64,000 bases of DNA from Maricaulis sp. Its GTDB lineage: Bacteria; Pseudomonadota; Alphaproteobacteria; Caulobacterales; Maricaulaceae. The position numbers and the translations under genes are program-made. The notes under the pieces are model-generated. The model had not been told where the DNA came from, ran no database searches, and worked only from the letters and a program-made list of their open reading frames with translations. This document shows positions 6,729-44,503 of the stretch, in pieces. The stretch lies in assembly GCF_030149425.1 (NCBI RefSeq), contig NZ_JASBRQ010000078.1:1-64000 (forward strand). The letters run 5' to 3'. How positions within the stretch are numbered: the stretch's first letter is position 1; the number at the start of each line of letters is the position of its first letter.

Positions 6729-6750
6729 CGGTTTTCCGTCGGCAAAACGA

Positions 6751-6782: not shown

Positions 6783-6806
6783 CTCGGTCTGCCTGAGTAA
6801 GTGTGT

Positions 6807-8526: not shown

Positions 8527-8703
8527 GCCGGGTCAGCGTGAGAACGGCCAGCACGGAATTCCCGCACCGGGCGCATGACCACCACAACACAATGCTTGAA
8601 TGCACATCCTGAAGGCGTATAGTTGCCCACACATCTACTTGGGTTGCGCGCCAACCTGTCCATTTTGCAGAACTGGCGCGCGTGCAACCAAGAGGGCATG
8701 CGC

Positions 8704-10319: not shown

Positions 10320-10424
10320 GGTCCTCCACCTCCCGCTCTCCGGTTACGCACCAAGCTGACAACCAAAGATCGCATCTTGCGACCTGTATAACAAGGGCTG
10401 GCAATTCACCGCGCGGCGGCGGAA

Positions 10425-15163: not shown

Positions 15164-15282
15164 GGAGCCCTCCGCAAAACACTCCCCGGCATTATGCAGC
15201 ACCAACCCACGCCCGCAACCCGAAGGGGATTTTCAGTCCTCACAAAACCTAAGCGTTGGCCGATCCAGCGCCGTCTGTCTGG

Positions 15283-15311
15283 TTGACGGCGTTGCTGGTT
15301 CTGACTACTAG
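15283..15311 (+). promoter_or_regulatory. Candidate sigma70-type promoter upstream of serS
   Basis: TTGACG at 15283-15288 and TACTAG at 15306-15311 are separated by 17 bases. The pair lies about 105 bases before the serS ATG in the region that diverges from the M20 operon. The -35 box is good and the -10 box poor, so confidence is limited. Confidence 0.35.
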
Positions 15312-15416
15312 GATTGGCGAAATCCGGTATCGGGGCACCCGGTTTCAGCCCTGTCGCGACGGCCCCGGATTGCAACCGCCCATCCGCTCTTACCTCCCAG
15401 ATCAGACCCTTATTTC

Positions 15417-16679: not shown

Positions 16680-16712
16680 CACGGCCCGCCCGCCGGAAAG
16701 GCGTCACACCGG

Positions 16713-19126: not shown

Positions 19127-19154
19127 GCAAACTTCTCACGCTTTTCAGCCCCGC

Positions 19155-20174
19155 CTAGTCCTTGAGACCGGCAAGCATTTCCTTGGCCTGCGCCGGACGT
19201 TCCAGCTGCAGCGCCGGGCCACCGACCAGCTCGCGAACTTCCTCGACCGCCCCGGCCAGCGAATTGAAGCGCTGCACCATTTTCGACAGCGCATGCCCGA
19301 TCATGCTGGGCTCGGCCATCATCATATGTTCCAGCGCCTTGCCGTTTTTGGTCAAAGCCTGACCGAGAGCGGCGGCCTCCATGACGACGATATGGTCCAT
19401 GGCAGCGGATTCATTCGCCAGCGCGCGCCCGACGGCAGCCGCTTCCATCACCACAACATCGTCCATGGCCGCGCCTTCCATGGCCAGAGCCTGGCCAACC
19501 GCTGCAGACTCCATCACCACGATTTCATTGAGGGCGGAGGCTTCGTTGGCGAGGGCCCGGCCGACGGCAGCGGCTTCCATCACCACTAGGTCATCCATGG
19601 CCGCGCCTTCCATGGCCAAGGCCTGGCCAATGGCCGCGGACTCCATGGTCACAATCTTGTTCAGGGCAGAGGCTTCATTGGCGAGAGCCCGGCCGACAGC
19701 AGCGGACTCCATCACCACGAGATCATCCATGGCCGCACCTTCCATGGCCATGGCCTGTCCGACGGCGGCGGATTCCATCGTGACGATCTTATTCAAGGCA
19801 GAGGCCTCGTTCGCCAAAGCGCGGCCCACGGCGGCAGATTCCATGGTCACGACATGATCCATCGCTGCCGACTCCATCGCCAGAGCCTGCCCGACAGCGG
19901 CCGCCTCCATTGTCACCACCTCATTCATGGCGGCATTTTCAGTGGCCAGCACACGCCCCACTGCAGCAGCCTCGGTCGTAACGACATGCTGCAGAACGGT
20001 CTCATCCGAGGCGATAGCCTGGGCAACATAAGTAGGTTCAGCGGCGAATAATCGCCCGAGGATGTCCGGATCCGACGCCAGCAGTTTGTTGAAGTCAGCC
20101 GCCTCGGCCACGACCCATTTTTCAAGCAGGCTAGAGTCTTCCTTGAGTGCCTTCGCGAAATCCTTGCTGTCCAT
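19155..20174 (-). CDS. Protein of thirteen 22-residue repeats, unknown function
   Basis: A 339-residue protein starting MDSKDFAKAL after a GGGAGG ribosome site. After 20 residues it divides exactly into 13 units of 22 residues (21-306). The central ten (65-284) are nearly identical, for example VTMESAAVGRALANEASALN followed by KI. Units alternate between a GRALANE and a GQALAME form, giving a 44-residue higher repeat. Each 22-mer is two 11-residue blocks with hydrophobic positions as in hendecad helices. It is rich in Met, Ala and Glu and has no Cys, signal peptide or membrane segment. I do not recognise the family; a long helical rod or scaffold is a guess. Confidence 0.75.
   Translation of the reverse strand: MDSKDFAKALKEDSSLLEKWVVAEAADFNKLLASDPDILGRLFAAEPTYVAQAIASDETVLQHVVTTEAAAVGRVLATENAAMNEVVTMEAAAVGQALAMESAAMDHVVTMESAAVGRALANEASALNKIVTMESAAVGQAMAMEGAAMDDLVVMESAAVGRALANEASALNKIVTMESAAIGQALAMEGAAMDDLVVMEAAAVGRALANEASALNEIVVMESAAVGQALAMEGAAMDDVVVMEAAAVGRALANESAAMDHIVVMEAAALGQALTKNGKALEHMMMAEPSMIGHALSKMVQRFNSLAGAVEEVRELVGGPALQLERPAQAKEMLAGLKD
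19323..19982 (-). repeat. 66-bp tandem coding repeat (10 units; 132-bp higher-order period)
   Basis: The DNA for repeat units 3-12 of the preceding gene. Ten copies of 66 bp are in frame, and alternating copies are more alike than neighbours, so the array probably grew by duplication of 132-bp blocks. Copy number could vary between strains by recombination or slippage. Confidence 0.85.
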
Positions 20175-20216
20175 CTTGACCTCCCGGGACAATATTCTTA
20201 ACGCTGAACCACCATA

Positions 20217-20277: not shown

Positions 20278-21234
20278 ATGGATAACCCTGAAGTTGCAAC
20301 TCGGCCGGACCTGGCCTGGACAGAAATCATCGATGACATCCTTCTGGCTTCGATCGTTGAAACCTGCGAACGCAATCCCGACCTGGCTGAGCTCGCCTTT
20401 CTCACCGGCAGTTATACCCGCGGTCTGCACAATCCCGACCGTCCCAACGTCAACGCTTATTTGATCGCCAAGCCTGGCCGCGCTGCCGATCTGCGCCTCG
20501 CCGCTGCGCGCAACTGGGCACGGATACGCGAGCGATTGTCCGCCTTGGGCATCGCCTTTCGTGTTGACTGCCACCCCTACACAGTAGCCTGGCGCCCGGA
20601 AGCCGACCGCGGCAAACCGGTCCTGGAACTGACCACCAAAGTGCTCGACGGCGGCCAAGCCGACAGCCGTTTCTCGCTACCGCCCTCGATTGGGATCGGT
20701 TGGCTTGGCGGGTATAAGGTGCTTTGGGGTGAAGCGGCCCTGCTCGACAAGCTGCACCTGCCGGATCCACTGCCCTCACGCACTGAATGGATTGCTTCGA
20801 TCCACGAGGCATTGAGCCATTATCGCAATGTGCTCGACCACCTCCCCAATGCCGTGCCGGTGTCGCAACGGCCGGAAGTTTTCGCGGAAGAGGCCTGTTT
20901 TTACGCTCTGGAGGCGATCAAGGATTGCATCAGCCTGTCCTTCGGCTGGGATGATCTCTTTGCCGGCAATCACCTCCAGGTCCTGCTTCAGAAGCGAGAA
21001 AAAGAGCATCTCCAGGCCGCCGGATGGTCGGACATGATTGAGCACAAGGCCGCGCTCAAGGCAGCCGAGCTGCGGGTCTTCCGCGGTGAAGTCACGAGCG
21101 AAGCGGAAGCGGTGCAGATCTGGCGCCTGGCGCTTCGGGTCTGGGACGCGGCCTGGGCCCGTTATCGCGATTGGGCCGCGGAAGAGCTGGACGGGGCCTG
21201 CCCCTGGCTCCTCCGGGTCAATGCTTTCGTCTAG
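20278..21234 (+). CDS. Nucleotidyltransferase-like protein without the metal-binding aspartates
   Basis: A 318-residue protein. Residues 41-63 read FLTGSYTRG, then NPDRPNVNAYLI, which has the spacing of the Pol-beta nucleotidyltransferase signature (GS, about 11 residues, D-x-D). The D-x-D is N57-V-N59, so both metal ligands are changed to Asn. The rest is mostly helical with aromatic stretches (FFALEAIKD-like, SFGWDDLFAG). It begins an operon with a methyltransferase and a carbamoyltransferase. It may be a binding or regulatory pseudoenzyme. The family assignment is from motif spacing only, so it is tentative. Confidence 0.5.
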   Translation: MDNPEVATRPDLAWTEIIDDILLASIVETCERNPDLAELAFLTGSYTRGLHNPDRPNVNAYLIAKPGRAADLRLAAARNWARIRERLSALGIAFRVDCHPYTVAWRPEADRGKPVLELTTKVLDGGQADSRFSLPPSIGIGWLGGYKVLWGEAALLDKLHLPDPLPSRTEWIASIHEALSHYRNVLDHLPNAVPVSQRPEVFAEEACFYALEAIKDCISLSFGWDDLFAGNHLQVLLQKREKEHLQAAGWSDMIEHKAALKAAELRVFRGEVTSEAEAVQIWRLALRVWDAAWARYRDWAAEELDGACPWLLRVNAFV

Positions 21235-21247
21235 GCCGGTGCGTTCT

Positions 21248-22051
21248 ATGAGTGTTGACGACACCGACGTCGAGACCCGGATCGCCGATGCCTGGGACCG
21301 GATTTCATCGGCCTACCAGGACCGCTATGAAATCAGCCCGGAGCATTTCCACTACGGCCCGATGTGCCCGGACGAAAGTGAGCTCGGCCTGATCGGCGAT
21401 GTCACTGGGCTACGTGTCCTCGACCTCGGCTGCGGCGGCGGGCAGAACACGATCTGGTTGGCAGAACGCGGAGCGGAACAGGCTCTGGGCCTTGACCCCT
21501 CCGCCTCCCAGATCGGGTTTGCCCGCAAACTCGCCGAGAGCCGCAAAGCCAGGGCCCAGTTCGCGATTGGCGACAGCCGGGCCTGCCGCGACATGCCGGG
21601 TCAATTCGATCTCGCGGTATCGATCTATGCCCTGATGTATGCCGCAGACCTGCGCGCAGCGCTGACGGATATTCACCTCGCACTGGCACAAGGCGGACGC
21701 CTGGTGCTGGCCCTCGACCATCCCTGGCGGATCGCCGGCGCATGGAAGGGAGGGCAACTGATTGTCGGTGACTATTTTGCCGAGGGTTGGGACAGCTGGG
21801 ATTACGATTTCCCGGAGCAGGAGGTCAGCTGCCGGCTACACCGGGTCAAGCGCCCGCTCGATGCGATCCTTACCGACTTTCTCGCTGCGGGCTTTCGCCT
21901 TGACGGCATGCTGGAGCCGCGACCGCCGGCCCGTGACGACATGTTCGCCCGCCGTTCAAAACACGGGGAGAATTCCCCGCTCAACGTCTACAGCCGGGAC
22001 AAGCTGGAACGAGTTCCCAGCACCTTGATCCTGTGGGGAAGCAAGGCATGA
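21248..22051 (+). CDS. SAM-dependent methyltransferase (class I)
   Basis: A 267-residue methyltransferase. Motif I is VLDLGCGGGQNTIWL at about residue 58, followed by an acidic end of strand 2 (ALGLDPSASQI). Motif IV-like FDLAVSIYALMY and LALAQGGRLVLAL fit the Methyltransf_11/25 fold. The ATG at 21248 lies 14 bases after the NTase-like stop, and its own stop overlaps the carbamoyltransferase start (ATGA). It probably methylates the same small molecule that the next gene carbamoylates; that link is inferred from position. Confidence 0.82.
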   Translation: MSVDDTDVETRIADAWDRISSAYQDRYEISPEHFHYGPMCPDESELGLIGDVTGLRVLDLGCGGGQNTIWLAERGAEQALGLDPSASQIGFARKLAESRKARAQFAIGDSRACRDMPGQFDLAVSIYALMYAADLRAALTDIHLALAQGGRLVLALDHPWRIAGAWKGGQLIVGDYFAEGWDSWDYDFPEQEVSCRLHRVKRPLDAILTDFLAAGFRLDGMLEPRPPARDDMFARRSKHGENSPLNVYSRDKLERVPSTLILWGSKA

Positions 22052-23727
22052 CCGAACACCTCTTGGGCATTCACTGTTCCTATCTGGACGGCCAGTTTCT
22101 CGCCGACGGAAATTGCGCCCTGGCGAGCGATGGAGAGCTGGTATTCGCGATCGCGGAAGAGCGCGTCAGCCGGATCAAGTATGATGGCCGCTTCCAGGCC
22201 GGGCTCGCCTATCTATTGCGGCGCAAGGGTTTGCAGGCCAGCGATATCGCCGCCATTGCCGTGTCGACATTCGGATTGGAAAATCCACCCACAGCATCGG
22301 AAACGGATGCGGTCGAGCGTGTCATTCGCGATGCCTTGCCGGGCTTTCGCGGCGAAATCCGCTTGATGGGCTCGCACCATGAGGCACACGCCTATAGCGC
22401 ACTGGCGCTGGCCGGGGTGACGGATGCGCTGGTCGCTGTGATCGACAATGAGGACAGCCTGCTTGCCCCGCGCACCTCCAAGGTGGTCGGCTTCAACGCA
22501 GTCGAGCGGACGAGCTACTTCCTGTGGCGCGGTAATACCCTTGAATTGGTCGCCCGCGATCACGCCGGGCCGGGCCATGTCGGCTATGGCAAGGCTTATT
22601 CCAAACTCACCCGCTATCTCGGTTTCGGCAATTATCACGCCTCGGGGAAAACCATGGGCCTGGCTGCTTTCGGCGATCCGGCACGGTTTGGCGAGCTGAC
22701 CCTGTTTGAGCGTTGCGAAAACCCGGAAACGCGCATGCGCAATAGCGCCGACGGCGTTCAGGATGTGATCGACTGGTTTACCCAGCAGGAATGCCCGCTC
22801 CCCGAACCACGCGGCGACAAGCCGCTCCGACGGATTGACGCCGATATCGCCGCCTGGATTCAGACCGAACTGGAGCAATCCGTCGAACACCGCATGCAGG
22901 GCCTGTGCGCCCAGCACAAACCGGTCACTGCCGCACTGGCCGGCGGGGTTGCCCTCAATTCGGTGATGAACGCCGCCCTGCGCCGGAACTTGCCAGTAAG
23001 CGATGTGTTCGTCCCGCCATCTCCGGGAGATGCCGGCCTGTCGATAGGCGCGCTGGCCTGGCTGATCCACCAGCGCCACGGCTCCTTGCCAGACTGGACA
23101 CCGCAAATCGCCCTGGGCGGCCACTACAGCAATGAAGAGATATCCGACGTGCTGCAGGCACATAACGGCATCCGCTGGGAGGCATGCGATGACCCGGCGG
23201 CCAGCGCCGCGGAGGCGATCGCAGCAGGCGCCATCATCGGTTGGCATCAGGGCGCCAGCGAATTCGGACCTCGCTCGCTGGGTCAAAGGTCCATTCTCGC
23301 CAATCCCGGATCGCCATGGGGTCATGTCACCCTAAATGGCGCCGTCAAACACCGCGAATGGTTCAGACCCTTTGCACCGGCGGTGACGCATGAGGCCATC
23401 TCGACCTATTTCGACGACCCGCGCGGCTCGCCCTTCATGATGCAGACCTCCGGCGTAACACGAGCCGGCAGAACCCGCATCCCGGCCGCTACCCACGTCG
23501 ATGACAGTGCGCGGCTGCAAAGCGTCAGCGCACAGGCCTCGCCTGACTTTCACCGCCTCCTGACCCATCTGGGCGAAGCGACGGGAACACCGGTCTCTCT
23601 CAATACGAGCTTTAACGATAATGGCGAACCGATCGTCGAAACACCGGCGGATTCCCTGGCCAGTTTTCTGCGCATGGACTGGATCGACACGCTCTTTGTC
23701 GGCAATTGGCGCGTCCGGCGAAGCTGA
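22048..23727 (+). CDS. NodU/CmcH-type O-carbamoyltransferase (copy 1)
   Basis: A 559-residue enzyme of the family that moves a carbamoyl group from carbamoyl phosphate to a hydroxyl via carbamoyl-adenylate. SHHEAHAYSAL holds the metal-binding HxxxH, and GGVALNSVMN and FVPPSPGDAGLSIGA form the ASKHA nucleotide site. The C-terminal domain has SEFGPRSLGQRSILANP and LNTSFNDNGEPIVETP. The ATG at 22048 overlaps the methyltransferase stop. Acceptors known in the family are sugars, antibiotics and toxins; which applies here is open. It converges on the enoyl-CoA hydratase gene. Confidence 0.88.
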   Translation: MTEHLLGIHCSYLDGQFLADGNCALASDGELVFAIAEERVSRIKYDGRFQAGLAYLLRRKGLQASDIAAIAVSTFGLENPPTASETDAVERVIRDALPGFRGEIRLMGSHHEAHAYSALALAGVTDALVAVIDNEDSLLAPRTSKVVGFNAVERTSYFLWRGNTLELVARDHAGPGHVGYGKAYSKLTRYLGFGNYHASGKTMGLAAFGDPARFGELTLFERCENPETRMRNSADGVQDVIDWFTQQECPLPEPRGDKPLRRIDADIAAWIQTELEQSVEHRMQGLCAQHKPVTAALAGGVALNSVMNAALRRNLPVSDVFVPPSPGDAGLSIGALAWLIHQRHGSLPDWTPQIALGGHYSNEEISDVLQAHNGIRWEACDDPAASAAEAIAAGAIIGWHQGASEFGPRSLGQRSILANPGSPWGHVTLNGAVKHREWFRPFAPAVTHEAISTYFDDPRGSPFMMQTSGVTRAGRTRIPAATHVDDSARLQSVSAQASPDFHRLLTHLGEATGTPVSLNTSFNDNGEPIVETPADSLASFLRMDWIDTLFVGNWRVRRS

Positions 23728-34078: not shown

Positions 34079-34248
34079 TTAAAATGAACCACGACGACCG
34101 TCGACATCTTGTCCCGGACAAATTTCCACAATCGGATTCTGTTTTCTTGACCGTGTCAGCCCGTATTCGCTGGACTTAGCCTTAAAGTTGTGAGCTGATT
34201 GGCGCGCCTTAAATACCGTTTAACGCAACCAAATTGAGGGGGAACGCC

Positions 34249-34863
34249 ATGTTACCAACGCTGAAACGCGCGATTGGTGGCCTTGCCATACTGCTATCAA
34301 CAACCGTCGCCGCTACCACGCCAACCCAGGCTGACAGTAATCCGTATCTCGGCGACGTCATGCCGGTCGGGTTCGGGTTTTGCCCGCGTGGCTGGGCCCC
34401 AGCGGAAGGCCAGCTACTGTCGATCGCACAGTATGATGCGCTCTTCTCACTGCTGGGTACGACCTATGGCGGCGATGGACGCTCGAGTTTTGCCCTGCCG
34501 GACCTGCGCAGCCGGGTTGTCGTCGGCGACGGACGCGCGCCGGGACTTCGCAATTGGGGCTGGGGTGCCCGATTTGGCACCGAAACCGTAACGCTGATCT
34601 CCAACAACCTGCCATCACACAGTCACTCGGTGAATTTGACCCCGGCTACGACCAATCTGTCCAACTCCCCGGTCAATGCCATGATCTATGAGCGCAATGC
34701 GGGCGCTATCGACGGCTTCACCGATCAGCCCAATAACCTGGTGGCTATGCGTGCCGGGTCGATCAGCAATACCGGCGGCGGTCAGTATCTCGACATCCGA
34801 CAGCCGACGCTGGCCATTCACTGGTGCATTGCGCTCCAGGGCATCTATCCCTCGCGCAACTGA
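34249..34863 (+). CDS. Exported tail-collar domain protein 1 (MdpB-like)
   Basis: A 204-residue protein with a signal peptide (MLPTLKRAIGGLAILL, cut near residue 29). The Tail Collar domain follows: GDVMPVGFGFCPRGW, GQLLSIAQYDALFSLLGTTY, FALPDLRSRVVVGDGRAPGL. Only two Cys are present, in FCPRGW and IHWCIAL, placed to form one disulphide outside the cytoplasm. It ends GIYPSRN. The domain was named from phage tail fibres but occurs in many non-phage microcystin-dependent-protein-like genes. No phage genes are nearby. First of three paralogues in tandem. Confidence 0.8.
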   Translation: MLPTLKRAIGGLAILLSTTVAATTPTQADSNPYLGDVMPVGFGFCPRGWAPAEGQLLSIAQYDALFSLLGTTYGGDGRSSFALPDLRSRVVVGDGRAPGLRNWGWGARFGTETVTLISNNLPSHSHSVNLTPATTNLSNSPVNAMIYERNAGAIDGFTDQPNNLVAMRAGSISNTGGGQYLDIRQPTLAIHWCIALQGIYPSRN

Positions 34864-34889
34864 TCAGCTCGGAAACCGGAGATAAAGTT

Positions 34890-35480
34890 ATGAAACTCAA
34901 ATCTGCACTTCTCGCGGCCGCGCTGATGGGCGCCGGCCTGGCCACAGCTCCGAGCGCATCGGCCCAGGAACCCTTCGTCGGTGAACTGCGCCTGTTCGGG
35001 AATAATTTCTGCCCGCGTAGTTGGGCCATGGCTCAGGGCCAGCTGCTGCCCATTGCTCAGAACACGGCCTTGTTCTCCTTGCTGGGAACCACCTATGGCG
35101 GCGATGGCCGCACCACTTTCGCCCTGCCGAATTTCGAAGGGCGCACACCCGTCGGCGTTGGCCGGGGCCCAGGCCTCAGCAATTACGTCTGGGGCGAACG
35201 TTCAGGTGCCGACATGCGTGTTCTAAGCAGCACGCAAATGCCGAGCCACAGCCACACGATGCGGGCATCGAACAACGTTATCGACACGCATGATGGTGCG
35301 GGTGACCTGTTCGGCGATTTCGGCGGCTTCCTGGCCTATGGCAGTAACACGAATGGCGGGCAGATGAATAATGCCACGATCGCCAATACGGGTGGCGGCC
35401 AGTCCTTCTCGGTGCAGCAGCCGCAAATCGTCATGAACTGGTGCATCGCACTCGCTGGCGTCTATCCGTCGCGCAACTAA
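34890..35480 (+). CDS. Exported tail-collar domain protein 2
   Basis: A 196-residue paralogue of the preceding gene, 26 bases after it, behind CGGAG. The signal peptide MKLKSALLAAALMGAGLA is followed by a cut after ASA, giving mature QEPFVGELRLFGNNF. The core FALPNFEGRTPVGVGRGPGL and the two Cys (FCPRSW, MNWCIAL) are kept, as is the GVYPSRN end. The central part (about 115-165) diverges most, as expected for a ligand or contact region. Probably a secreted or surface protein; function unknown. Confidence 0.8.
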   Translation: MKLKSALLAAALMGAGLATAPSASAQEPFVGELRLFGNNFCPRSWAMAQGQLLPIAQNTALFSLLGTTYGGDGRTTFALPNFEGRTPVGVGRGPGLSNYVWGERSGADMRVLSSTQMPSHSHTMRASNNVIDTHDGAGDLFGDFGGFLAYGSNTNGGQMNNATIANTGGGQSFSVQQPQIVMNWCIALAGVYPSRN

Positions 35481-35518
35481 CCGCCACTTGTTTCGACCCA
35501 GATTGGGAGATTTTTTTC

Positions 35519-36100
35519 ATGCTTAAAGCATTAACGAGACTTTCAGTGGCCGCAGGCGCTGCCGCTACCCTCGCCGGAGCTGCACAGGCCGCTCCGGGTA
35601 CGTTCCTCGGCGACATTCAGCTTGAGGGCTTCAACTTCTGTCCGCGCGGCACGCTCGAAGCTGCCGGCCAGCTTTTGCCGATCAACCAGAACCAGGCCTT
35701 GTTCTCGCTCTACGGGACCACCTATGGGGGCGATGGACGCACGACCTTTGCCTTGCCGGATCTGCGCGGCAGGGTCGCTGTGGGCTACGGTGCAGGACCG
35801 CGGCTGGGAACGCGCACGGGCGAAGAAACCCGCACGCTGACCGTCGCCAACATGCCGGCACATAATCACCGGGTAAATACGGGCACCAGCGGCGTTGTGA
35901 CCAATCCGACCAATGCTTCAATCACCGAATTGCCCGTGGGCGTGGATGTTTTCAGCGTCCCGGCCAACCCGACCGGCAGCACCATGAACAGCGCGATGAT
36001 CGCCAATACGGGGGGCGGCCAAGCCTTCGATATCATCATGCCGACGCTGGCGATGAAATGGTGTGTCACCACACAGGGCACATTCCCGCCGCGCAACTAG
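35519..36100 (+). CDS. Exported tail-collar domain protein 3
   Basis: A 193-residue paralogue, 38 bases after the second and behind a GGGAG site followed by a T run. The signal peptide (MLKALTRLSVAAGAAATLAG) ends at AQA. It keeps GTTYGGDGRTTFALPDLRGR, the Cys pair (NFCPRG, MKWCV) and a PPRN end. It is followed by a strong terminator at 36131. The three genes form one unit and are perhaps made as a set of related surface subunits. Confidence 0.8.
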   Translation: MLKALTRLSVAAGAAATLAGAAQAAPGTFLGDIQLEGFNFCPRGTLEAAGQLLPINQNQALFSLYGTTYGGDGRTTFALPDLRGRVAVGYGAGPRLGTRTGEETRTLTVANMPAHNHRVNTGTSGVVTNPTNASITELPVGVDVFSVPANPTGSTMNSAMIANTGGGQAFDIIMPTLAMKWCVTTQGTFPPRN

Positions 36101-36262: not shown

Positions 36263-37903
36263 ATGAGCAGTTTCATACGGCACCTTGTGGACACCGCACC
36301 GCAATCCCGGCTGGGGCAGAGCGGGGCGGCGGCCATTTCCTTCGCGGGCCGCGGCGGCGTAGTTGCGACGCAGCACACGCTGGACGACCTGCTGCAGCGT
36401 TCGGCCGGCATAGCGTCGTCCATTGTCAGCGAGATCAAAGCCGATCGCGTTGCCCTGGCCTTTCCGACAGGTATCGATTTTGTCTCGACCTTCCTGGCCT
36501 GCCTGATGGCCGGCAAGCTGGCCGTGCCGATCCCGACACCTCGGCACGGGCCGCAGAGCCAGCGCATAGCAACAATCCTGGCCAATGCGCAGACAGAAGA
36601 CGTGATCTGCCAGAGCGCTGACCTGGCCGTCTTTGCGGATATGGTCAGCGCTGGCGGTGCGGGCGCCATGCGCAGCTGGGCCGTCGAGGACCTGAGCCGT
36701 TCCGGCCAGGCGACTGACATCGAGGCTCTGCCGGGCTTTGACCGCCCGGCCTCTGACCTGGTTTTCCTGCAATATACCTCCGGCTCGACACAGGACCCGA
36801 CCGGGGTGGGCATCAGCAATGGCAATGCGCTGGACAATGCAGCCAAGGCGAAGCGGGCCTATCTCATGGGCTCCGAGCAGTTCGTGAACTGGATGCCGCA
36901 TTTCCACGATATGGGCCTGGTAGGCGGCATACTGATACCGCTGGCCCTGGGCATGCCGAGCGTACAGATGGCGCCCTTCAGCTTTCTGCAAAGACCGGTC
37001 GACCTGCTCAAGCTGATCGCATCCCTGCCGGAAGTGGTCTGCGGCGGCCCTGCCTTCTCCCTCAACATCCTGATGGACCGGGTGCCGCGCGATGTCGCCG
37101 ATGAACTCGACCTGTCGAGCTGGCGCCGCCTGTTTTGCGGCGGCGAGCCCATTCCCGCCGGCCTGTTCGATCGTTTCCGCGCCCATTTCCGCAACGCCGG
37201 CTTCCGCCCCGAAGCGCTCTACGCCACCTATGGCATGGCAGAGACCACGCTCTATGCCGCAGGCGGCTACGTTCCGGAACCGCTCAGCGCTGGCGCGGAA
37301 TTATTCGAAGCGTGCAGCCTCTCGCTCGAGGATCAGAGCCATCTGTGTATCGTCGATCCGGACAGCGGCGAAAGCGTCGCACAAGGCGATACCGGTGAGA
37401 TCTGGATGACCGGCGCCTCGATCGGCCAGGTCTTCAAGGCGGGCGAGGCGGCAGGCACGACGGGACAGGGCGAGCTCAATGGCCGCCGCTATCATCGTAC
37501 CGGCGATCTCGGGAAAATCATCGGCGACCGTCTCTATGTCACCGGCCGGATCAAGGATGTTCTGATCATCAACGGCCAGAACATCATGGCCAGCGAAGTC
37601 GAGTGGGCCGCGGCGGAGTTGTCGGATGCGCTCAACCCGCTCGCCGCGGCGGCCTACCAGATGGATGACGATCAGTCCTGCTATCTCGAGATCGAGCTCA
37701 GGGGCAAAGCCGAGGCCGGCGCCGATCACAGCGCCCTTACAACGCGCATGCATGCCCGGCTGGCCAGCCAGTTCGGTATCGATTTCAAGCAAATCTGCAT
37801 CCGCAAACGCGGTAGCCTGCCCCGCACGTCCAGCGGCAAGATCCAGCGCTCGCGGGTCAAACAGGATCGCGGCGCTCCCCGCCTCGAAAGCGCCCATGAC
37901 TAA
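36263..37903 (+). CDS. Fatty acyl-AMP ligase (FAAL)
   Basis: A 546-residue ANL enzyme. The P-loop is LQYTSGSTQDPTG at 169-181, and NWMPHFHDMGLVGGILIPL is the FAAL-type motif. ATYGMAETTLYAAGG, YHRTGDLGKIIGDRLYVTGR and the A10 Lys in RTSSGKIQR complete the core. FAALs load fatty acids as adenylates onto acyl carrier proteins and make little CoA ester. An ACP gene two positions downstream fits exactly. It is the first gene of a four-gene operon, and its stop overlaps the P450-like start by 8 bases. Chain length of the substrate is unknown. Confidence 0.9.
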   Translation: MSSFIRHLVDTAPQSRLGQSGAAAISFAGRGGVVATQHTLDDLLQRSAGIASSIVSEIKADRVALAFPTGIDFVSTFLACLMAGKLAVPIPTPRHGPQSQRIATILANAQTEDVICQSADLAVFADMVSAGGAGAMRSWAVEDLSRSGQATDIEALPGFDRPASDLVFLQYTSGSTQDPTGVGISNGNALDNAAKAKRAYLMGSEQFVNWMPHFHDMGLVGGILIPLALGMPSVQMAPFSFLQRPVDLLKLIASLPEVVCGGPAFSLNILMDRVPRDVADELDLSSWRRLFCGGEPIPAGLFDRFRAHFRNAGFRPEALYATYGMAETTLYAAGGYVPEPLSAGAELFEACSLSLEDQSHLCIVDPDSGESVAQGDTGEIWMTGASIGQVFKAGEAAGTTGQGELNGRRYHRTGDLGKIIGDRLYVTGRIKDVLIINGQNIMASEVEWAAAELSDALNPLAAAAYQMDDDQSCYLEIELRGKAEAGADHSALTTRMHARLASQFGIDFKQICIRKRGSLPRTSSGKIQRSRVKQDRGAPRLESAHD

Positions 37904-38975
37904 GCATGTCGATGTGCGCGACCCGGAGAACATCCGGCCCGCGCTGATGAGCCAGAGCCTCAGCGTCAACCGGATCGGCGATCTCTATAACGGCCTCGAC
38001 CGGCAGTTCGGCGTGCCTCTCGACGCGTTTCACGACTATGTCGCGCACTCGATCTTCTTTTCCGAAGGCGAGACACACAAGACGCTGAAACGCGCCGCTT
38101 CCATGGCCAGCCGGACCAGCCTGCTCAATACCCGGGTCGACTACCGCGCCATCGCCGGCAGCATCGCCGCCAGCCTGCCCACCGGTTCGCCCGTCAACCT
38201 CGCCGAGGCCTACAGCGCCGCCTTCGTCAATCGCGTCGTCGTCGAGGCCTATGGCCTTAACCCTCAGGCACTCGATGACTACGACCGCTGGCGCAATAAT
38301 CTGGAATATCTGCTCTCGGAACTCCCGCCCTGGCGCCAGGTCAAACAGTTCAACACCTCCGCCGCCGAGCTGCATGCCTCGCTGGAAGACTGGTTTTCCC
38401 GCGAACAGGGCCGCCATCTGCGCGCATCCAGCCTGGCCGAGGCCTGTGAAGGACTGAGCTTGAGCGAGACCGCTTATGTGGGCGCGGCCCTCCTGCTCGG
38501 CGGTATCGCCACCAGCTACACGCTGAGCAATGCGCTCCATCTGGTTCTGTCCGATGCCGGGCGATTTGCCGACTGGAAGGCGGCGTTCGCAGAGGATGCA
38601 GCCCTTGCGGCACGGAAAATGGTCGGCGTCTGCTCCGCTGTCGCCTCGGTCACCCGGCTCTGCGTGGACGAGGTGGAGATCGGCACTCACCGTTTTGATC
38701 GGGGCGACAGGGTTCGCATCCACCTGACGCCTGAGATCACACCGGCAGCGGCTTGTCCGCACGCCGCGAAGGCCAGCCATGTCGGCTTCGGCATAGGTCG
38801 ACATAAATGCGTCGGGGAAATGCTCGCTTACGAGATCATCGCGGCTGGCTTGCCGGTTTTCTTCGAGCAATTCACTCACTGCGAGTTAGACGCGGAGGCG
38901 GTCGTTCGCGACCAATCCCACCCGCTCGCCCGGCTCAAAACCCTGCCGGTCGTTCTGGGCCGGGCGGACGACTGA
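37896..38975 (+). CDS. Reduced cytochrome P450-like protein
   Basis: A 359-residue protein. HVGFGIGRHKCVGEMLAYEI holds the haem-thiolate loop with Cys305, a clear P450 signature. Several other marks are missing or changed. The I-helix reads LLLGGIATSYTLSN instead of AG.(D/E)TT. The expected K-helix ExxR reads LAAR, so the Glu is absent. The usual ANRDP..F..P..F stretch before the haem loop is cut to a few residues. It is about 40 residues shorter than usual. It may bind haem and act on the ACP-bound acyl chain, or be a binding pseudoenzyme. It starts inside the FAAL stop. Confidence 0.75.
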   Translation: MTKHVDVRDPENIRPALMSQSLSVNRIGDLYNGLDRQFGVPLDAFHDYVAHSIFFSEGETHKTLKRAASMASRTSLLNTRVDYRAIAGSIAASLPTGSPVNLAEAYSAAFVNRVVVEAYGLNPQALDDYDRWRNNLEYLLSELPPWRQVKQFNTSAAELHASLEDWFSREQGRHLRASSLAEACEGLSLSETAYVGAALLLGGIATSYTLSNALHLVLSDAGRFADWKAAFAEDAALAARKMVGVCSAVASVTRLCVDEVEIGTHRFDRGDRVRIHLTPEITPAAACPHAAKASHVGFGIGRHKCVGEMLAYEIIAAGLPVFFEQFTHCELDAEAVVRDQSHPLARLKTLPVVLGRADD

Positions 38976-39026
38976 CCCGGTATCACAGGCATCAAAGACA
39001 TCAACACACCCAGGGGGACGTAGAGA

Positions 39027-39272
39027 ATGGGCTTGGACGAGGTAAAGGCGCAGATCGAAAAGACGCTGGCGCAAAACACCAATATTGCAGCGGACGCCAT
39101 CCGCTACGATGAGGCCATGGAGGACATCGGAATACGCTCGGCCGATGCCGTCTATATGTGCGGTGTTCTGGAAGAAACCTTCGAGATCGAGATTGATCCG
39201 TCGATGATTTTTGAGTTGGACACGCTGGGCGATTTTGCCAACGAGATCATCAAGCTAATCGGTCAAAAATAA
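39027..39272 (+). CDS. Acyl carrier protein (stand-alone)
   Basis: An 81-residue acidic helical protein. MEDIGIRSADAVYMCGVLEE corresponds to the carrier-protein motif D-x-G-x-x-S, so Ser38 should receive phosphopantetheine. It follows the P450-like gene by 51 bases and its TAA overlaps the carbamoyltransferase ATG. The helix after the Ser contains a Cys (C45), unusual for an ACP. It is likely the carrier for the acyl group loaded by the FAAL. Confidence 0.85.
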   Translation: MGLDEVKAQIEKTLAQNTNIAADAIRYDEAMEDIGIRSADAVYMCGVLEETFEIEIDPSMIFELDTLGDFANEIIKLIGQK

Positions 39273-40969
39273 TGAAATGGTATGTCGGCCTGTCCAATAC
39301 CGGCCATGACCCGGCACTGGCGATCATTGATCCGGACGGCCGGGTAGCCTTTGCCGAGGCAACGGAGCGCTTCGTCCAGGTCAAACGGGCCTGGGGCATT
39401 TTGCCGGACCTGGCCGCGCATCTCGAGCACGCCATAGCGCATGTGGATTTCGATCCGGCGCGCGACCAGATCGAAGTCTGCACCAGCTGGTCGACGACCC
39501 ATAAACGGCCCAAGGACGAGCTCACCAATCCGTTGATGGCGCGTCATATGCTGGACAGCCTGTATGATTATCAGGGCTGCCAGTTCAACAATATCGGCGC
39601 GTCCTTCCGCCTGCTCGAGCTGACCGACCAGCCGATCGAGGTGCGGCGCTTTGAACACCATGCCTGCCACGCCGCCACCGGAGTTTACTTCTCCTCTGCC
39701 GAGGACGCGGTCTGCCTCGTTATCGATGGCGAGGGCGAGACCGGCGCCATCTCGGAATATGCTGTTTCCGGCCGCCGCCTGAAACGCAGATGGCGGGCCT
39801 GGAATGCCGGCGCCAGCCTGGGTCTCTATTATGGCTGGCTGACGCTGCGCTGCGGTTTCGATGGCATCAAGGGCGAGGAATGGAAAGTGATGGGCCTGGC
39901 CGCTTTTGGCGAGGTTCGTGACGATCTCGTCGCTGAGCTGAGCCGCGTTCTGGCCTTCGAGAACCATCGGCCGGTCAACCGCGATGATGAGGAAATCAGC
40001 GCGATACTGAGCGAGGTCGAGACCCGCATCGCCCATGCCACGCGGACACCGCAGGAACCGATCATGCAGGCCGCTGACCTCGCCGCATCGGGACAATATG
40101 TCTACGGCCGATTTGCCGACAATCTGATCGCCGGCTGCATGAAGCACGAGCCGTCCAGCCTTATCCTGACAGGCGGATGCGCGCTGAACTCCTCCTATAA
40201 TGGCACGGTGATGCAACGCTTCGGGCTCGACCAGGTCGATATCCCGCCCTGCCCAGCTGATGACGGCAATGCGATCGGCGCTGCCCTGCTCGCCTGGTGC
40301 GAGGACCAGGACGCGCCGATCGCCCGCTCCGACCGCTCGCCTTATCTCGGCTCATCCCCGAACCCGGCCAAGATCGCCGCCTGCATCGAGGCGTCCGCCC
40401 CCCATTTCAAAGTCAGCGAAGCGGGAGAGAATTCTGCCAATCTGGTTGCCCGCAAACTCGCCGAGGGCCAGATCATCGGCGTGATGCGGGGCCGCGCCGA
40501 ATTCGGCCCGCGCGCCCTGGGCAATCGCTCCATCCTGGCGGATCCGCGCCCGGCCGGCATGAAAGACAAGATCAACCGTCTCGTGAAAGGGCGCGAGGCC
40601 TACAGGCCTTTCGCCCCGGTGATCCCGGAAGACCGCCTCGCAGACTGGTTCGAAACCCCTCAGCCAACCCCCTATATGTCGAAAACCCTGCGCTGGCGGC
40701 CGGACAAGCTGACGCAAATCCCCGCCGTAGCACATGCCGACGACACCGGCCGGGCGCAATCGGTCACACCGGAGCTCTATCCCTGGCTGCATGATGTTCT
40801 GGTGGCCTTCGAGGCGGAAACGGGCGTCCCGATCATCCTCAATACGAGCCTGAATATTATGGGAAAACCGATCGTCCACTCGGTCGAGGACACGGTTGCC
40901 ATGCTGATGACGACAGGGCTCGATGCGATCCTGCTTGGCGACACGCTGATCGAGAAAGCCTCACGATAG
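39272..40969 (+). CDS. NodU/CmcH-type O-carbamoyltransferase (copy 2)
   Basis: A 565-residue carbamoyltransferase. FEHHACHAATGVYFSS bears the metal-binding His residues. VIDGEGETGAISEY, LTGGCALNSSYNG and DIPPCPADDGNAIGAALLAW form the nucleotide domain. AEFGPRALGNRSILADPRP and ILNTSLNIMGKPIVHS close the C-terminal domain. It is clearly diverged from the copy at 22048-23727. Start (TAATG) and operon position tie it to the ACP, suggesting carbamoylation of a hydroxyl on an ACP-bound chain. Its last 9 bases overlap the convergent hydrolase gene. Confidence 0.88.
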   Translation: MKWYVGLSNTGHDPALAIIDPDGRVAFAEATERFVQVKRAWGILPDLAAHLEHAIAHVDFDPARDQIEVCTSWSTTHKRPKDELTNPLMARHMLDSLYDYQGCQFNNIGASFRLLELTDQPIEVRRFEHHACHAATGVYFSSAEDAVCLVIDGEGETGAISEYAVSGRRLKRRWRAWNAGASLGLYYGWLTLRCGFDGIKGEEWKVMGLAAFGEVRDDLVAELSRVLAFENHRPVNRDDEEISAILSEVETRIAHATRTPQEPIMQAADLAASGQYVYGRFADNLIAGCMKHEPSSLILTGGCALNSSYNGTVMQRFGLDQVDIPPCPADDGNAIGAALLAWCEDQDAPIARSDRSPYLGSSPNPAKIAACIEASAPHFKVSEAGENSANLVARKLAEGQIIGVMRGRAEFGPRALGNRSILADPRPAGMKDKINRLVKGREAYRPFAPVIPEDRLADWFETPQPTPYMSKTLRWRPDKLTQIPAVAHADDTGRAQSVTPELYPWLHDVLVAFEAETGVPIILNTSLNIMGKPIVHSVEDTVAMLMTTGLDAILLGDTLIEKASR

Positions 40970-41992
40970 CCGAGGGACCACCATATCCACGCCCCGCTGG
41001 CGGGCCGCGGCGATATTGACCGGCCCGGCCCCTTCCAGCACCGGATAGAGGGTCAAATTCCAGATTCCCGGATCCGGCGCCTGCAGGTTCAGGAGGATGG
41101 ACGTTTCGTAGAGGCGTCCGGACACATCAATCAGCTCGTTTCGGGCGTCCAGACGCTCAAGACAGTGCCAGAAGGCGTACAATTTCAGGCCTTGCGGCGT
41201 CGTCCGTCCGGTATGCTGACGCGACGACAGGCGCACCGATACGAAGATTGAGCCGGCGATCGGCTGCGACATCACATGGCCAGACAGTTCGGCGACAATA
41301 TCTGACGGGTCGGGGCTGGCAGCCGGGTCCATTTTGTCGGCAATGTGCTCGGATATGATTTCAGCGAGCGCCCCAATCGTATCCGGTTCAAAATACCGGC
41401 CATGTTCGCCGGGCAAGGCACGGGCCTCAACCGACCGGAATATCGAGCCCCACGTATTCAGAAGCGCATCATCACTCAGACAGGGATTGAATTTGGCGCT
41501 CTGCTCACCATAGACCATGACCTGATCGCCGGCGAAGGGCTGCAGCGTCATGCTTTCCATGTGGAAGGCCCCGAGAACCGGGATACCGTCTACGGCGAAA
41601 CACTCCTTCAGTCGTGCTGCCGTATTGGCGCCCTGGCAATTGCCGCCGATAAAGAAACGGGCATCGGGAAAGTGCTCGCGGATCCGCTCGTAATAGATGT
41701 CAGCTATCTTGAAATCGAGGCGGGTTGACCGGTAGCCGCCACGGGCCACCATATGCCCCGACCGCAAGCCGATCAGTGGCTGCTCCGACCCCAAGGCCGC
41801 GGCCAGGCGCTCAAATTCATGGCTGGCGTTGAAACACCAGATCAAGGGCCGGCGCGTACCGGCTTCATTGGCGATATGGATCAATCCATCATCGTCAACG
41901 GCGCGGCCACTCCAATCCTGCTTGAAGTTTCTGATCACGGCCAAAGCCTTCTTCAAGGCCTTGGGTTCCAATACGGTCCGAGATTGCAACAT
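40961..41992 (-). CDS. Thioesterase-like alpha/beta hydrolase with Cys nucleophile
   Basis: A 343-residue protein. LIWCFNASHEFERLAAALG resembles the start of type I/II thioesterases of peptide and polyketide synthases, and FFIGGNCQGANTAARL is the nucleophile elbow. Residue 119 is Cys, where Ser is usual (G-N-C-Q-G). The C-terminal third (about 230-343) is an extra, mostly beta region that I do not recognise. It is convergent to the FAAL-ACP-carbamoyltransferase operon, sharing 9 bases. It may release or transfer the finished acyl chain. The assignment is by motif and context. Confidence 0.65.
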   Translation of the reverse strand: MLQSRTVLEPKALKKALAVIRNFKQDWSGRAVDDDGLIHIANEAGTRRPLIWCFNASHEFERLAAALGSEQPLIGLRSGHMVARGGYRSTRLDFKIADIYYERIREHFPDARFFIGGNCQGANTAARLKECFAVDGIPVLGAFHMESMTLQPFAGDQVMVYGEQSAKFNPCLSDDALLNTWGSIFRSVEARALPGEHGRYFEPDTIGALAEIISEHIADKMDPAASPDPSDIVAELSGHVMSQPIAGSIFVSVRLSSRQHTGRTTPQGLKLYAFWHCLERLDARNELIDVSGRLYETSILLNLQAPDPGIWNLTLYPVLEGAGPVNIAAARQRGVDMVVPRLS

Positions 41993-42160: not shown

Positions 42161-43285
42161 TCAGCCCAGCAAGAGTTCCGCCAGAACCCGTTTATGGTGC
42201 GCTTCATCGCCGGTTTGCGCGCCGTGCCATATGGCGCGCCGCCGATGCAGCTGGGCGTCGCAGTCATAGGTAAAGCCAAACCCGCCATGGAACTGGATCG
42301 AGCGATCACCGGCCTGGCTATAAGCCTCCAGCGCCGCAACCTTGGCCATGCGCGTGGCGACTTCGCCTTCGCCCTGACGGTCGAAACAGTGCGCCGCGCT
42401 ATATACGTGTGACCGGGCCTGCTCATACAAAACATAGGCATCGACCATGGGGTGTTTGAGCGCCTGGTAGGCCCCGATGGGTTTGCCGAACTGGGTCCGG
42501 GTGCGCAGGTAATCCAGCGTGTAATCGATCAGGGACAGATTGGCGCCGGCCATATCTGCTGCGGCCAGGAGATTACCGCTCAGCTGGATGTGCGCCAGGG
42601 TCGCTGCCGCACTTGCATCCGGCATTAAACGGTCGGCCGGCAGCTCGATCCCGTCCAGCGTCAGTTCGAAGCTCCGGCGGGTTTCATCGACAATGGTCTC
42701 GCGCCGCAGCGCCCCATCGGGAATATCCCCGGCTTCCAGCAGGACCAGAGCCGGACCGCCCTCATGCGTCACTGACACAATAATCAAGGCGGCCTCTCCG
42801 GCATCCGCGACAAGACGCTTGCGCCCTGAAAGCGCAATCGCGTCACCGGCCGGCGCGGCCGTGGACACCGGCGCGCTGATATCCCAGTCGCTCTCGGCTT
42901 CGAGCAGGGCCAGCGTCGCCGCCTCACCGGCGGCCAGGCGCGGCAACCGGGCTTGTTTTTGCGCCTCACTACCACCACTCAGCAAGGCCTGGGCCGCCAA
43001 GGTTGTTGAGACGAAAGGCGTATTGAGCAGATAACGCCCCATGGCCTCGGCCACCGGCACCACCTCAGCCAAGCTCAGACCGACACCCCCGTAATTTTCC
43101 GGAATGGCAATACCGAGCCAGCCCATCTCGCCGATCTCTTTCCAGATATCCGGATCGTAGCCGCGCTCATCGGTCAAAAGCGCACGCACCTTGTCGATCG
43201 GCGACCGGTCGCGGCAGAAATTCATCGCCACATCGAGGAGATCACCCTGTTCCTCGGAGAAGCCGAGTTCACCAAGCTTGTCCAT
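42161..43285 (-). CDS. Acyl-CoA dehydrogenase
   Basis: A 374-residue flavoprotein. The N-terminal helical domain has GWLGIAIPENYGGVGLSLAEVV. The C-terminal domain has RTQFGKPIGAYQALKHPMVD and QFHGGFGFTYDCDAQLHRRRA, conserved in the FadE group. The middle domain is weakly conserved (no clear TEP..GSD). It lies 10 bases after a second dehydrogenase, and such adjacent weak/strong pairs often form heteromeric acyl-CoA dehydrogenases, as in actinobacterial and alphaproteobacterial steroid/terpenoid pathways. It is the last gene of the minus-strand Atu-like operon. Start 43285 is an ATG with AGGGG upstream. Confidence 0.82.
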   Translation of the reverse strand: MDKLGELGFSEEQGDLLDVAMNFCRDRSPIDKVRALLTDERGYDPDIWKEIGEMGWLGIAIPENYGGVGLSLAEVVPVAEAMGRYLLNTPFVSTTLAAQALLSGGSEAQKQARLPRLAAGEAATLALLEAESDWDISAPVSTAAPAGDAIALSGRKRLVADAGEAALIIVSVTHEGGPALVLLEAGDIPDGALRRETIVDETRRSFELTLDGIELPADRLMPDASAAATLAHIQLSGNLLAAADMAGANLSLIDYTLDYLRTRTQFGKPIGAYQALKHPMVDAYVLYEQARSHVYSAAHCFDRQGEGEVATRMAKVAALEAYSQAGDRSIQFHGGFGFTYDCDAQLHRRRAIWHGAQTGDEAHHKRVLAELLLG

Positions 43286-43294
43286 GATCAACCC

Positions 43295-44503
43295 CTATCC
43301 CTTCGGCAGGCCGAGCGCGTGCTCGGCGATAATATTGCGCTGGATTTGCGACGTGCCCCCACCGATCGTGGCGGAGAAGGCGTTGAGATAGGCACGCATC
43401 CACAAACCATCGTCGACCGCATTGGGATCGCCGACATAATAACCGCCATCCACCCCGGTTAGCGAAACTGCGAACTCGTTGATGCGCCGGGCAAATTCCG
43501 TCGTCATCAGCTTCGAGGCCAAGGGGATGCCAAAGGGTTTGTCCTGATTGAGCGGCGGCACGGCCAGGCGCTGACGGCACAGCGCGTTGGATTGGATTTC
43601 AATGATGAAATCGACCAGCTTGTCCTTGAGCACCGGATCATCGATGGCCGGTTTGCCGCCGCGTTTGACCCGGCGAGCCAGGTCGACGACGTCAAAGGCG
43701 TTCTGTTCGGTGATGATATAGCCCCCGGCCTGGCCACCACGCACGCCGCGCTCGTATTCGAGCAATTGCATGGCAAAGGTCCAGCCTTGGCCTTCCTGGC
43801 CCATCAAACCGTCCGCCGGAATGCGCGCTTCATCGAAAAAGGTCTGGGTGAACCCGTACTCGCCAGTGAGCTTTCGGATCGGCGTCGTCTCCACGCCCGG
43901 CACCCGCATCGGCGCCAGGAAGAAGCTCAGCCCGTCATATTTGCGCGGCGCATCCGGGTCTGTCCGGGCCAGAAGGATCATGTATTTGGCGTAATTGCCC
44001 TGGGTCGTCCAAATCTTCGACCCGGTGACAACATACTCATCGCCATCACGCACGGCGCGGGTCTGGGCATTGCCTAGATCGGACCCGTTTTCGGGCTCCG
44101 AGAAGCCTTGGCACCAGATATCTTCGGCCGAGAGAATGCCCTTGAGGTATTTCGACTTTTGCTCCTCGGTACCGATGTCCAGCAGCATCGGTCCGGTCCA
44201 GTTGAGACCGATCGCATTGAGCATGATCGGTGCATCATGCTTGCGCATGGCCGCGGTGGCCGCACGCTGGAACGCCTCGTCGAGACCGCCACCGCCATAG
44301 GCCTTGGGCCAGGCCGCTCCGAGATATCCGGCCTCCCAGACCTTGTTCTGCCAGTCGCGCAGAAACTCGAATTGCTGGTCTGTACCGACTTCCATGAAGG
44401 TGAGCGGCAGGCGGAAGCCCGGGTCCTTGACGGTATTCTCCGCGAACCAGGCCTCGGCCCCGGCGGCGAATTCTGCCAATTCCTTTTGATCAACGGCGCT
44501 CAT
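43295..44503 (-). CDS. Acyl-CoA dehydrogenase
   Basis: A 402-residue acyl-CoA dehydrogenase. IWCQGFSEPENGSDLGNAQT, VTGSKIWTTQGNYA and a long C-terminal helical domain (SATIGGGTSQIQRNIIAEHALG) show a full FAD-binding set; E..R of the last motif is in place. It resembles citronellyl-CoA or long-chain FadE-type enzymes. It is encoded 12 bases after the TIGR03084-type gene and 10 before its partner dehydrogenase. It likely performs the first oxidation of the substrate acyl-CoA of this cluster. Confidence 0.87.
   Translation of the reverse strand: MSAVDQKELAEFAAGAEAWFAENTVKDPGFRLPLTFMEVGTDQQFEFLRDWQNKVWEAGYLGAAWPKAYGGGGLDEAFQRAATAAMRKHDAPIMLNAIGLNWTGPMLLDIGTEEQKSKYLKGILSAEDIWCQGFSEPENGSDLGNAQTRAVRDGDEYVVTGSKIWTTQGNYAKYMILLARTDPDAPRKYDGLSFFLAPMRVPGVETTPIRKLTGEYGFTQTFFDEARIPADGLMGQEGQGWTFAMQLLEYERGVRGGQAGGYIITEQNAFDVVDLARRVKRGGKPAIDDPVLKDKLVDFIIEIQSNALCRQRLAVPPLNQDKPFGIPLASKLMTTEFARRINEFAVSLTGVDGGYYVGDPNAVDDGLWMRAYLNAFSATIGGGTSQIQRNIIAEHALGLPKG

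Follow-up and report, generated by a model that had tools for sequence, protein, structure and literature searches.

A candidate acyl carrier protein tailoring cassette with a P450-like haem protein, an O-carbamoyltransferase and alternative off-loading enzymes in Maricaulis sp. and other bacteria

Gene content of the locus

The window analysed here is a stretch of 64,000 nucleotides from Maricaulis sp. (assembly GCF_030149425.1, contig NZ_JASBRQ010000078.1, positions 1 to 64,000), and our subject within it is a candidate cassette of four co-directional genes for a fatty acyl-AMP ligase (FAAL), a P450-like protein, an acyl carrier protein (ACP) and a NodU/TobZ-type O-carbamoyltransferase, met by a convergent gene for a cysteine (Cys) hydrolase (Table 1). 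The original prediction, made from the letters of the window, had described these five genes as a complete route to a carbamoylated lipid, and all five lie where it placed them, with the overlaps of 8 bp (FAAL and P450-like genes) and 1 bp (ACP and carbamoyltransferase genes) that it gave. The gap between the P450-like and ACP genes is 51 bp, and the Cys-hydrolase and carbamoyltransferase genes have 9 bp in common. A start for the P450-like gene at 37626, inside the FAAL gene, came from a mechanical list of open reading frames (ORFs) and is spurious; the ATG at 37896 is preferred because it fits the tight packing of the genes.

Table 1. Coordinates and assignments of the five genes of the window.
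Feature	Position	Strand	Length	Residues and domains	Profile match
FAAL	36263..37903	+	546 aa		Pfam AMP-binding 2.7e-46
P450-like protein	37896..38975	+	359 aa	single domain; haem-thiolate Cys305 (38808-38810)	
ACP	39027..39272	+	81 aa	predicted phosphopantetheine Ser38 (39138-39140)	PP-binding 1.2e-09
NodU/TobZ-type O-carbamoyltransferase	39272..40969	+	565 aa		Carbam_trans_N 1.7e-23, Carbam_trans_C 1.9e-61
Cys-hydrolase, alpha/beta-hydrolase thioesterase-like	40961..41992	-	343 aa	Cys119 (41636-41638); C-terminal beta-rich domain	

By its sequence, the ligase has the ANL adenylating fold with FAALs among its relatives. NCBIfam FAAL models were among its best matches, all below their cut-offs, and its best solved relative was 7r7g (E 2.5e-75; file name 'polyketide synthase'), which we take to be the FAAL CylA; 6 of its 16 solved matches are named as AMP or adenylate ligases. 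An SSGK motif is present in the window protein, and the GK motif of the last core occurs in 30/30 FAALs of the set described below (SSGKIRR in L052). As described in PMC8460268, the CoA pocket of EcFAAL is plugged by the bulky W224, M231 and F279, favouring holo-ACP over CoA. In the window FAAL, W210, M217 (+7) and F265 (+48) stand at identical spacing; the W-to-M motif occurs in all 30 FAALs and the G-P-F motif in 29, being absent in L057.

The ACP had Pks13 as its best NCBIfam match, far below the cut-off of that model. Its attachment serine is kept in 31/31 aligned ACPs (an alignment that excludes the ACP of L057), pantetheinylation is predicted, and a phosphopantetheinyl transferase match of the AcpS family is present in the genome. 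The carbamoyltransferase is assigned by sequence to the NodU/TobZ type, with both the N- and C-domains present, and has 9s2t (decarbamoylnovobiocin carbamoyltransferase, with which it shares blocks in the alignment), GdmN and TobZ as solved relatives; the NCBIfam equivalog model for NodU has a cut-off of 1000 bits, and with a score of 153 the protein does not qualify as NodU.

For the Cys-hydrolase, no Pfam match was found. Its structural model (pLDDT 81) has thioesterases of polyketide synthases (PKSs) and nonribosomal peptide synthetases (NRPSs) as top Foldseek matches and a beta-rich C-terminus. The motif GGNCQGA (C119), E146 and H197 are invariant in 6/6 aligned thioesterases (L045 and L050 trimmed at the start, L049 left out), and the seventh, in L049, has GACQGG inside a 721-aa frame, such that a Cys occupies the nucleophile position in all 7. 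The convergent Cys thioesterase of the original prediction is thus present, C119 coming with a thioesterase fold match, and we class the protein, from sequence and model, as an alpha/beta-hydrolase thioesterase with a Cys/Glu/His triad and a predicted activity. Also borne out, for the assembly, was the statement that no ketosynthase or NRPS module is present: no Condensation domain was found in this 3.3-Mb, 94.9% complete genome, and its four ketoacyl-synthase matches all lie on contigs other than that of the window.

The acyl-CoA dehydrogenases at 42161-44503 were rejected as cassette members; they lead into a separate operon of biotin carboxylase, enoyl-CoA hydratase, carboxyl transferase and AtuA genes and, with both among the queries, came up as a best match at no other cassette locus. 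Directly upstream of the FAAL gene lie three consecutive phage tail collar domain genes (34234-36100, + strand). Farther away, the stretch 399-20192 holds branched-chain amino acid genes (LeuA-like, a thiamine pyrophosphate enzyme, KARI, IlvD-like) near a glycosyltransferase and an aldo/keto reductase, together with genes for a 739-aa FAD-oxidase-like protein, an M20 peptidase and a seryl-tRNA synthetase-like protein. Weak hits to AMP-binding and hexapeptide models there stay under the cut-off. The stretch could be another biosynthetic cluster.

Recurrence of the gene set and its alternative off-loading enzymes

The original prediction had staked itself on the genes being conserved together elsewhere, and they are. 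We scanned genome contigs with a pair of carbamoyltransferases and took 80 of the 258 matches, a sample and not a census; 31 of these 80 loci (L044-L072, L086, L095), from Alpha- and Gammaproteobacteria, Bacteroidota and one member of the Verrucomicrobiota, carry the set. Such recurrence in 31 other loci is more than chance. Counting the window, the P450-like protein, the carbamoyltransferase and the ACP are each present in 32/32 loci (31 ACPs by phmmer, plus that of L057 from its ORF list) and the FAAL in 30/32, it having not been found in L050 and in the fragmented L070. Gene order is constant except in L071, which has its FAAL gene downstream. The set is absent from the remaining 49 loci; seven have FAAL-like frames of >2000 aa beside the carbamoyltransferase, one has an MBOAT (L105) and six a weaker radical-SAM match. 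Such FAAL- or adenylation-like frames of >2000 aa accompany the next-nearest carbamoyltransferases in L077, L094, L087, L090, L110, L121 and L122 (Nostocaceae, Bacteroidota).

The cassette carbamoyltransferases form a single clade (SH-aLRT 100) that takes in 31/31 placed cassette rows and 0/50 other rows, in a tree made by a quick method without L039, which coincides in position with L054, and without L070, whose carbamoyltransferase is in pieces. At 24 of the 30 loci measured (L057 and L070 not among them), the carbamoyltransferase gene shares 1 or 4 bp with the ACP gene. Distance matrices of the four proteins correlate at r 0.75-0.89, with 0/2000 permutations as high in a test that ignores species relatedness; for the ACP and the carbamoyltransferase r was 0.76. 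A second carbamoyltransferase of the window (22033-23727) was rejected as a member of the system, as the tree sets it apart from the clade, at the end of a very long branch, and it has a methyltransferase neighbour of its own. That stretch (20278-23727, + strand) holds this second NodU/TobZ-type gene after the methyltransferase gene (21242-22051), and a 318-aa ORF without a Pfam match that resembles a nucleotidyltransferase by eye.

Among 149 related genomes, a matching carbamoyltransferase was found in 7, and one of the cassette kind only in the window's own genome and in Brevundimonas alba of the same taxonomic order (53% identity), which has a FAAL, a double P450, an ACP and the carbamoyltransferase in the same order as the window. 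The remaining five enzymes have 30-37% identity, and no FAAL, P450 or ACP was found by blastp at the loci of four of them (L040-L043; the fifth, in genome G135, was not covered). In 385 genomes of the class, the carbamoyltransferase of a Sphingopyxis locus (L053) had some match in 119; among the matches listed, the window's own was far the best (52%), the next full-length ones reaching at most 43%, and the thioesterase matched proteins in 3/385, its own genome included. Two further carbamoyltransferases of the cassette kind, which enter none of our counts, lie on plasmids. The record of CP049029.1 independently annotates a radical SAM protein, a fatty acyl-AMP ligase, a cytochrome P450, an ACP and a carbamoyl transferase, with an 'MBOAT family protein' and an 'SGNH/GDSL hydrolase family protein' farther along; CP104105.1 has an AMP-binding protein, a hypothetical protein of double-P450 size, an ACP and a carbamoyl transferase.

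In L070 (7709-15031), from a metagenome-assembled genome of Breoghania, the P450, carbamoyltransferase and radical-SAM genes are in fragments, by sequencing error or decay; histidine-degradation genes adjoin the cassette on a plasmid of Phaeobacter sp. G2 (L165, 10977-17667), and no paper naming this strain was found among the matches listed in open-licence papers; and in L048 (11976-14640) two downstream amidohydrolase genes encode HutF- and HutI-like domains.

Beyond the four-gene core, the loci differ in the enzyme that could release the acyl group. An MBOAT with an SGNH-like protein occurs in 15/32 loci, a large tetratricopeptide repeat (TPR) protein in 8/32 (L044, L046, L051, L052, L055, L064, L070 and L095, that of L070 being a weak partial match) and the Cys thioesterase in 7/32. 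Carriers of the MBOAT form include the environmental strains Brevundimonas alba DSM 4736 and Sphingopyxis witflariensis DSM 14551. Exactly one of the three was observed in 30/32 loci and two together in none; in the two loci without any, L047 and L068, one flank is cut short by the end of the contig. At these counts, an absence of overlap would arise by chance with a probability of 0.006 for thioesterase against MBOAT and 3.6e-05 for the seven TPR-type (LPLAT) loci other than L070 against both; these hypergeometric figures take no account of relatedness, nor of the families having been chosen post hoc.

The MBOAT profile matches DltB (9.7e-38), and 11 of its 14 members match Pfam MBOAT. In the SGNH-like partner, which has an N-terminal hydrophobic stretch, Ser88, Asp315 and His318 are kept in 14/14 rows (L086 was left out of both alignments); no informative Pfam or solved-structure match was found for it. 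The third type carries Pfam TPR repeats in three of four proteins tested (L044, L051 and L064, not L052), and its members share a C-terminal domain in which a TH or SH motif is conserved and which weakly matches LpxL-type acyltransferases. Deep in the clade, where some forks are weakly supported, the branches belong to Verrucomicrobiota, Gammaproteobacteria and Bacteroidota and, with the exception of the truncated L068, to MBOAT loci, and because MBOAT loci hold most of these branches the Dlt-like form may be the older form of the cassette. The thioesterase that the original prediction had named as the means of release is therefore in place but belongs to a minority form; with MBOAT and SGNH-like genes at 15 loci, the product may go to an acceptor and not become a free lipid.

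A proposed route on the carrier protein and its alternatives

We lean, with somewhat better than even confidence, towards the four co-directional genes being a conserved acyl-ACP tailoring cassette that works as follows. The FAAL would adenylate a fatty acid and transfer it to the ACP, and the bound chain would be the substrate of the P450-like haem protein, which most likely adds oxygen. The NodU/TobZ-type enzyme, consuming carbamoyl phosphate and ATP, would next carbamoylate a hydroxyl of this chain. The carbamoyloxy-acyl group would then exit the ACP via one of three interchangeable off-loaders. In the window, the Cys thioesterase would yield a free acid, a lactone, or an ester or amide of some acceptor, and at about half of the loci the DltB-like MBOAT and its membrane-anchored SGNH-like partner would carry out a Dlt-like transfer to an extracytoplasmic acceptor. 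We infer each of these chemical steps, as well as the chain length, the site of carbamoylation, the acceptor and the product. Chemistry on the carrier is best supported by two observations: the P450-like proteins are close to P450BioI, and the carbamoyltransferase gene is packed against that of the ACP.

The window P450-like protein alone scored 18.5 bits against the Pfam p450 cut-off of 22.8. A profile of 54 P450 domains from the 32 loci (excluding the incomplete first domains of L049, L070 and L095) had the P450BioI:ACP complex 3ejb as the best of 659 solved sequences (E 3.5e-52), and the first six Foldseek matches of the predicted structure (pLDDT 90.4) were all P450BioI:acyl-ACP chains. 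P450BioI is an oxidative enzyme acting on ACP-bound fatty acids. The haem Cys was observed in 54/54 domains (window loop FGIGRHKCVG), and H61, R254 and H303 are nearly invariant. The protein is thus a member of the P450 fold with a haem-thiolate Cys loop, and it likely oxidises the ACP-bound chain.

Several findings weigh against this reading. Against simple hydroxylation in particular, the missing P450 motifs carry the most weight. ExxR, the motif of helix K, is intact in 2/54 domains and lost in 52/54, the window reading K..G at this position. An acid at the I-helix, where an acid/threonine pair serves in O2 activation, is found in 0/54 domains in the aligned column (window GGIAT, with the threonine and no acid), and the pair is kept in perhaps one, L057, as GGDT one column off. 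P450s without ExxR exist, so that membership of the fold stands; with both motifs mostly lost, however, the P450 may not be a monooxygenase (by the I-helix pair the window sequence does not qualify as one), and ordinary monooxygenation is not secure. It is possible, though rather unlikely in our view, that the P450-like proteins bind haem and acyl-ACP without hydroxylating, acting instead as a peroxygenase, lyase or isomerase or by docking, while the hydroxyl arrives with the fatty acid of the FAAL, for example a 3-hydroxy acid. The invariant Cys and near-invariant H61, R254 and H303 beside the missing ExxR and I-helix acid would fit such a role, as would the two copies at most loci and the Pfam p450 search of the genome, whose one match lies on another contig. 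Hydroxylation is favoured over it by the oxidative character of P450BioI, the nearest relative, and by L057 (8489-9948), where a similar operon has a P450 with both ExxR and GGDT, which suggests that ordinary oxidation would fit the pathway. L057 also counts against the tailoring-cassette reading, since it combines the same carbamoyltransferase and thioesterase types with a different P450 and a different ACP, the latter with a GADS motif. The complete route claimed in the original prediction is partly supported: the conserved set of four genes, the likeness to P450BioI and the FAAL pocket residues speak for it, whereas ordinary P450 oxygenation of the chain is not secure.

The carbamoyl acceptor is likewise not tied to the acyl chain by any observation, and the carbamoyltransferase family acts on sugars and macrolides as well. 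The carbamoyl group could then sit on a separate acceptor (a sugar, a glycan unit or a small molecule) to which the acyl group is joined by the MBOAT, the LPLAT-like protein or the thioesterase, giving a carbamoylated glycolipid or an acylated polysaccharide. The solved relatives 9s2t, GdmN and TobZ, whose substrates are such sugars or macrolides, would agree with this, as would the MBOAT pairs that elsewhere acylate polysaccharides and teichoic acids. We nonetheless find it doubtful, given the 1- or 4-bp overlaps and the correlated distances of ACP and carbamoyltransferase described above, and with no glycosyltransferase among the annotated recurrent neighbour clusters, which are a part of all clusters.

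A wider form of the tailoring-cassette reading, which we put forward tentatively as falling short of even likelihood, is a Dlt-like pathway of the Gram-negative envelope. ExxR-less and often paired P450s and O-carbamoylation would act on the ACP, the MBOAT and SGNH-like proteins would pass the group to a surface acceptor, the system would have spread across phyla and on plasmids, and its transfer end would have been replaced in some Alphaproteobacteria, that of the window among them, by the Cys thioesterase or an LpxL-like enzyme. The last label is weak to moderate and counts among the difficulties of the tailoring-cassette reading in general: the Lip_A_acyltrans match to the C-terminal domain of the TPR proteins had an E of 0.12 in one of four members only, and comparison of its profile with that of 15 LpxL-type proteins gave E 5.1e-05 and a probability of 67% for this single pair. 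The off-loader profiles were moreover built from the same loci after the recurrence had been seen, making the exclusion pattern post hoc. On the same side we count gaps of 10 and 6 residues relative to 7r7g in the FAAL-specific insertion region, where the insertion presumably lies, and the rarity of the cassette, as a carbamoyltransferase with >50% identity to that of L053 over most of its length was found in 1/385 class genomes among the matches listed.

Across the 32 loci, the P450 part consists of two fused domains in 17, two adjacent genes in 5, an incomplete first domain with a second in 3 and a single domain in 7 (the window, L057, L058, L059, L063, L066 and L072). Two domains are therefore present in 25/31 relatives, three of these with the incomplete first, and the window lacks the second. 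In the P450 tree the second-position domains form one clade (100/99) that includes two of the single ones; the window protein lies outside it on a branch of 3.6, very divergent with at most 24% identity to the set. A B12 radical-SAM gene is present in 13/32 loci. Taken with the two domains of most relatives, this points to the window as a reduced version: the four-gene core that the original prediction took for a complete set is conserved, but a second P450 and radical SAM are missing from it.

Reduction could go further, to a decaying and non-functional remnant of a Dlt-like cassette that has lost the MBOAT, the SGNH-like partner and the second P450. The long branches (0.87 for the carbamoyltransferase, beside that of the single P450) would fit such decay, and neither the MBOAT nor the SGNH-like profile matched the window's genome, the former finding its target in Brevundimonas and the latter being uncontrolled. 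The five frames are nevertheless open and tightly packed, the haem Cys, ACP Ser, FAAL pocket and Cys/Glu/His of the thioesterase are in place, the carbamoyltransferase has motif blocks in common with that of Brevundimonas, and six other loci have the same type of thioesterase, which together make a dead remnant improbable.

Relation to known systems

The original prediction knew of no described system with this set, and none was found in the open-licence literature. Searches there gave no paper for FAAL with MBOAT, for carbamoyltransferase and MBOAT with ACP or P450, or for P450BioI with carbamoyl, only a laxaphycin review for FAAL with carbamoyltransferase and only unrelated papers for carbamoylated fatty acids; in broader searches, none of the matches listed described the cassette. 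In the main text of a FAAL review, by term count, carbamoyl, MBOAT and P450 do not occur (PMC11837247).

If the reading of a tailoring cassette is true, at least three bacterial phyla have in common a route, undescribed in that literature, that yields acyl groups bearing a carbamate and involves neither a polyketide synthase nor a peptide synthase. In it, natural-product tailoring is joined to the carrier-to-MBOAT logic of teichoic-acid D-alanylation. If the envelope reading is true as well, the lipid carbamates so made, whether secreted or at the cell surface, would form a new class. The P450 family, with its haem thiolate and an ExxR mostly lost, would make the action of a haem enzyme on acyl-ACP directly testable with small co-encoded proteins, and the interchangeable off-loader would be a natural experiment in the routing of a single acyl cargo to more than one destination.

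The closest parallel in overall logic is the Dlt system, in which a ligase (DltA) loads a small carrier (DltC) and an MBOAT with a partner (DltB, DltD) carries out the transfer. The cassette shares with it an adenylating ligase and a small carrier, and in 15 of the 32 loci a DltB-like MBOAT with an SGNH-like partner, so that by analogy the MBOAT-bearing relatives may work like Dlt. It differs in having a FAAL-type ligase where DltA is specific for D-alanine and in encoding a P450 and a carbamoyltransferase between ligase and transfer genes, and the window, with a Cys thioesterase and no MBOAT or SGNH match, is not a Dlt system.

P450BioI (CYP107H1) is the best profile and fold match and, by the titles of its entries, deals with ACP-bound fatty acids, but identity over the fold alignment is 14-15%, ExxR and the I-helix motif are mostly lost in the cassette proteins, two domains are usual, and the operon is one of FAAL and carbamoyltransferase. 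FAAL-ACP starter modules of lipopeptides and polyketides, such as those of CylA and JamA, likewise have a stand-alone FAAL and an ACP with tailoring on the carrier, whereas the window, with no ketosynthase or Condensation domain, does not belong to a PKS/NRPS cluster. The carbamoyltransferase shares both Pfam domains and its solved relatives with NodU, TobZ, GdmN and NovN and differs from them in forming a separate clade beside an ACP. The Cys-hydrolase has the fold of NRPS/PKS thioesterases and differs in the Cys nucleophile of its 7 members, the missing Pfam match and an extra beta-rich domain. The families involved are thus known ones, the SGNH-like and TPR parts less surely so, and what looks new is the way they are combined, along with the variant P450 and off-loaders that can stand in for one another.

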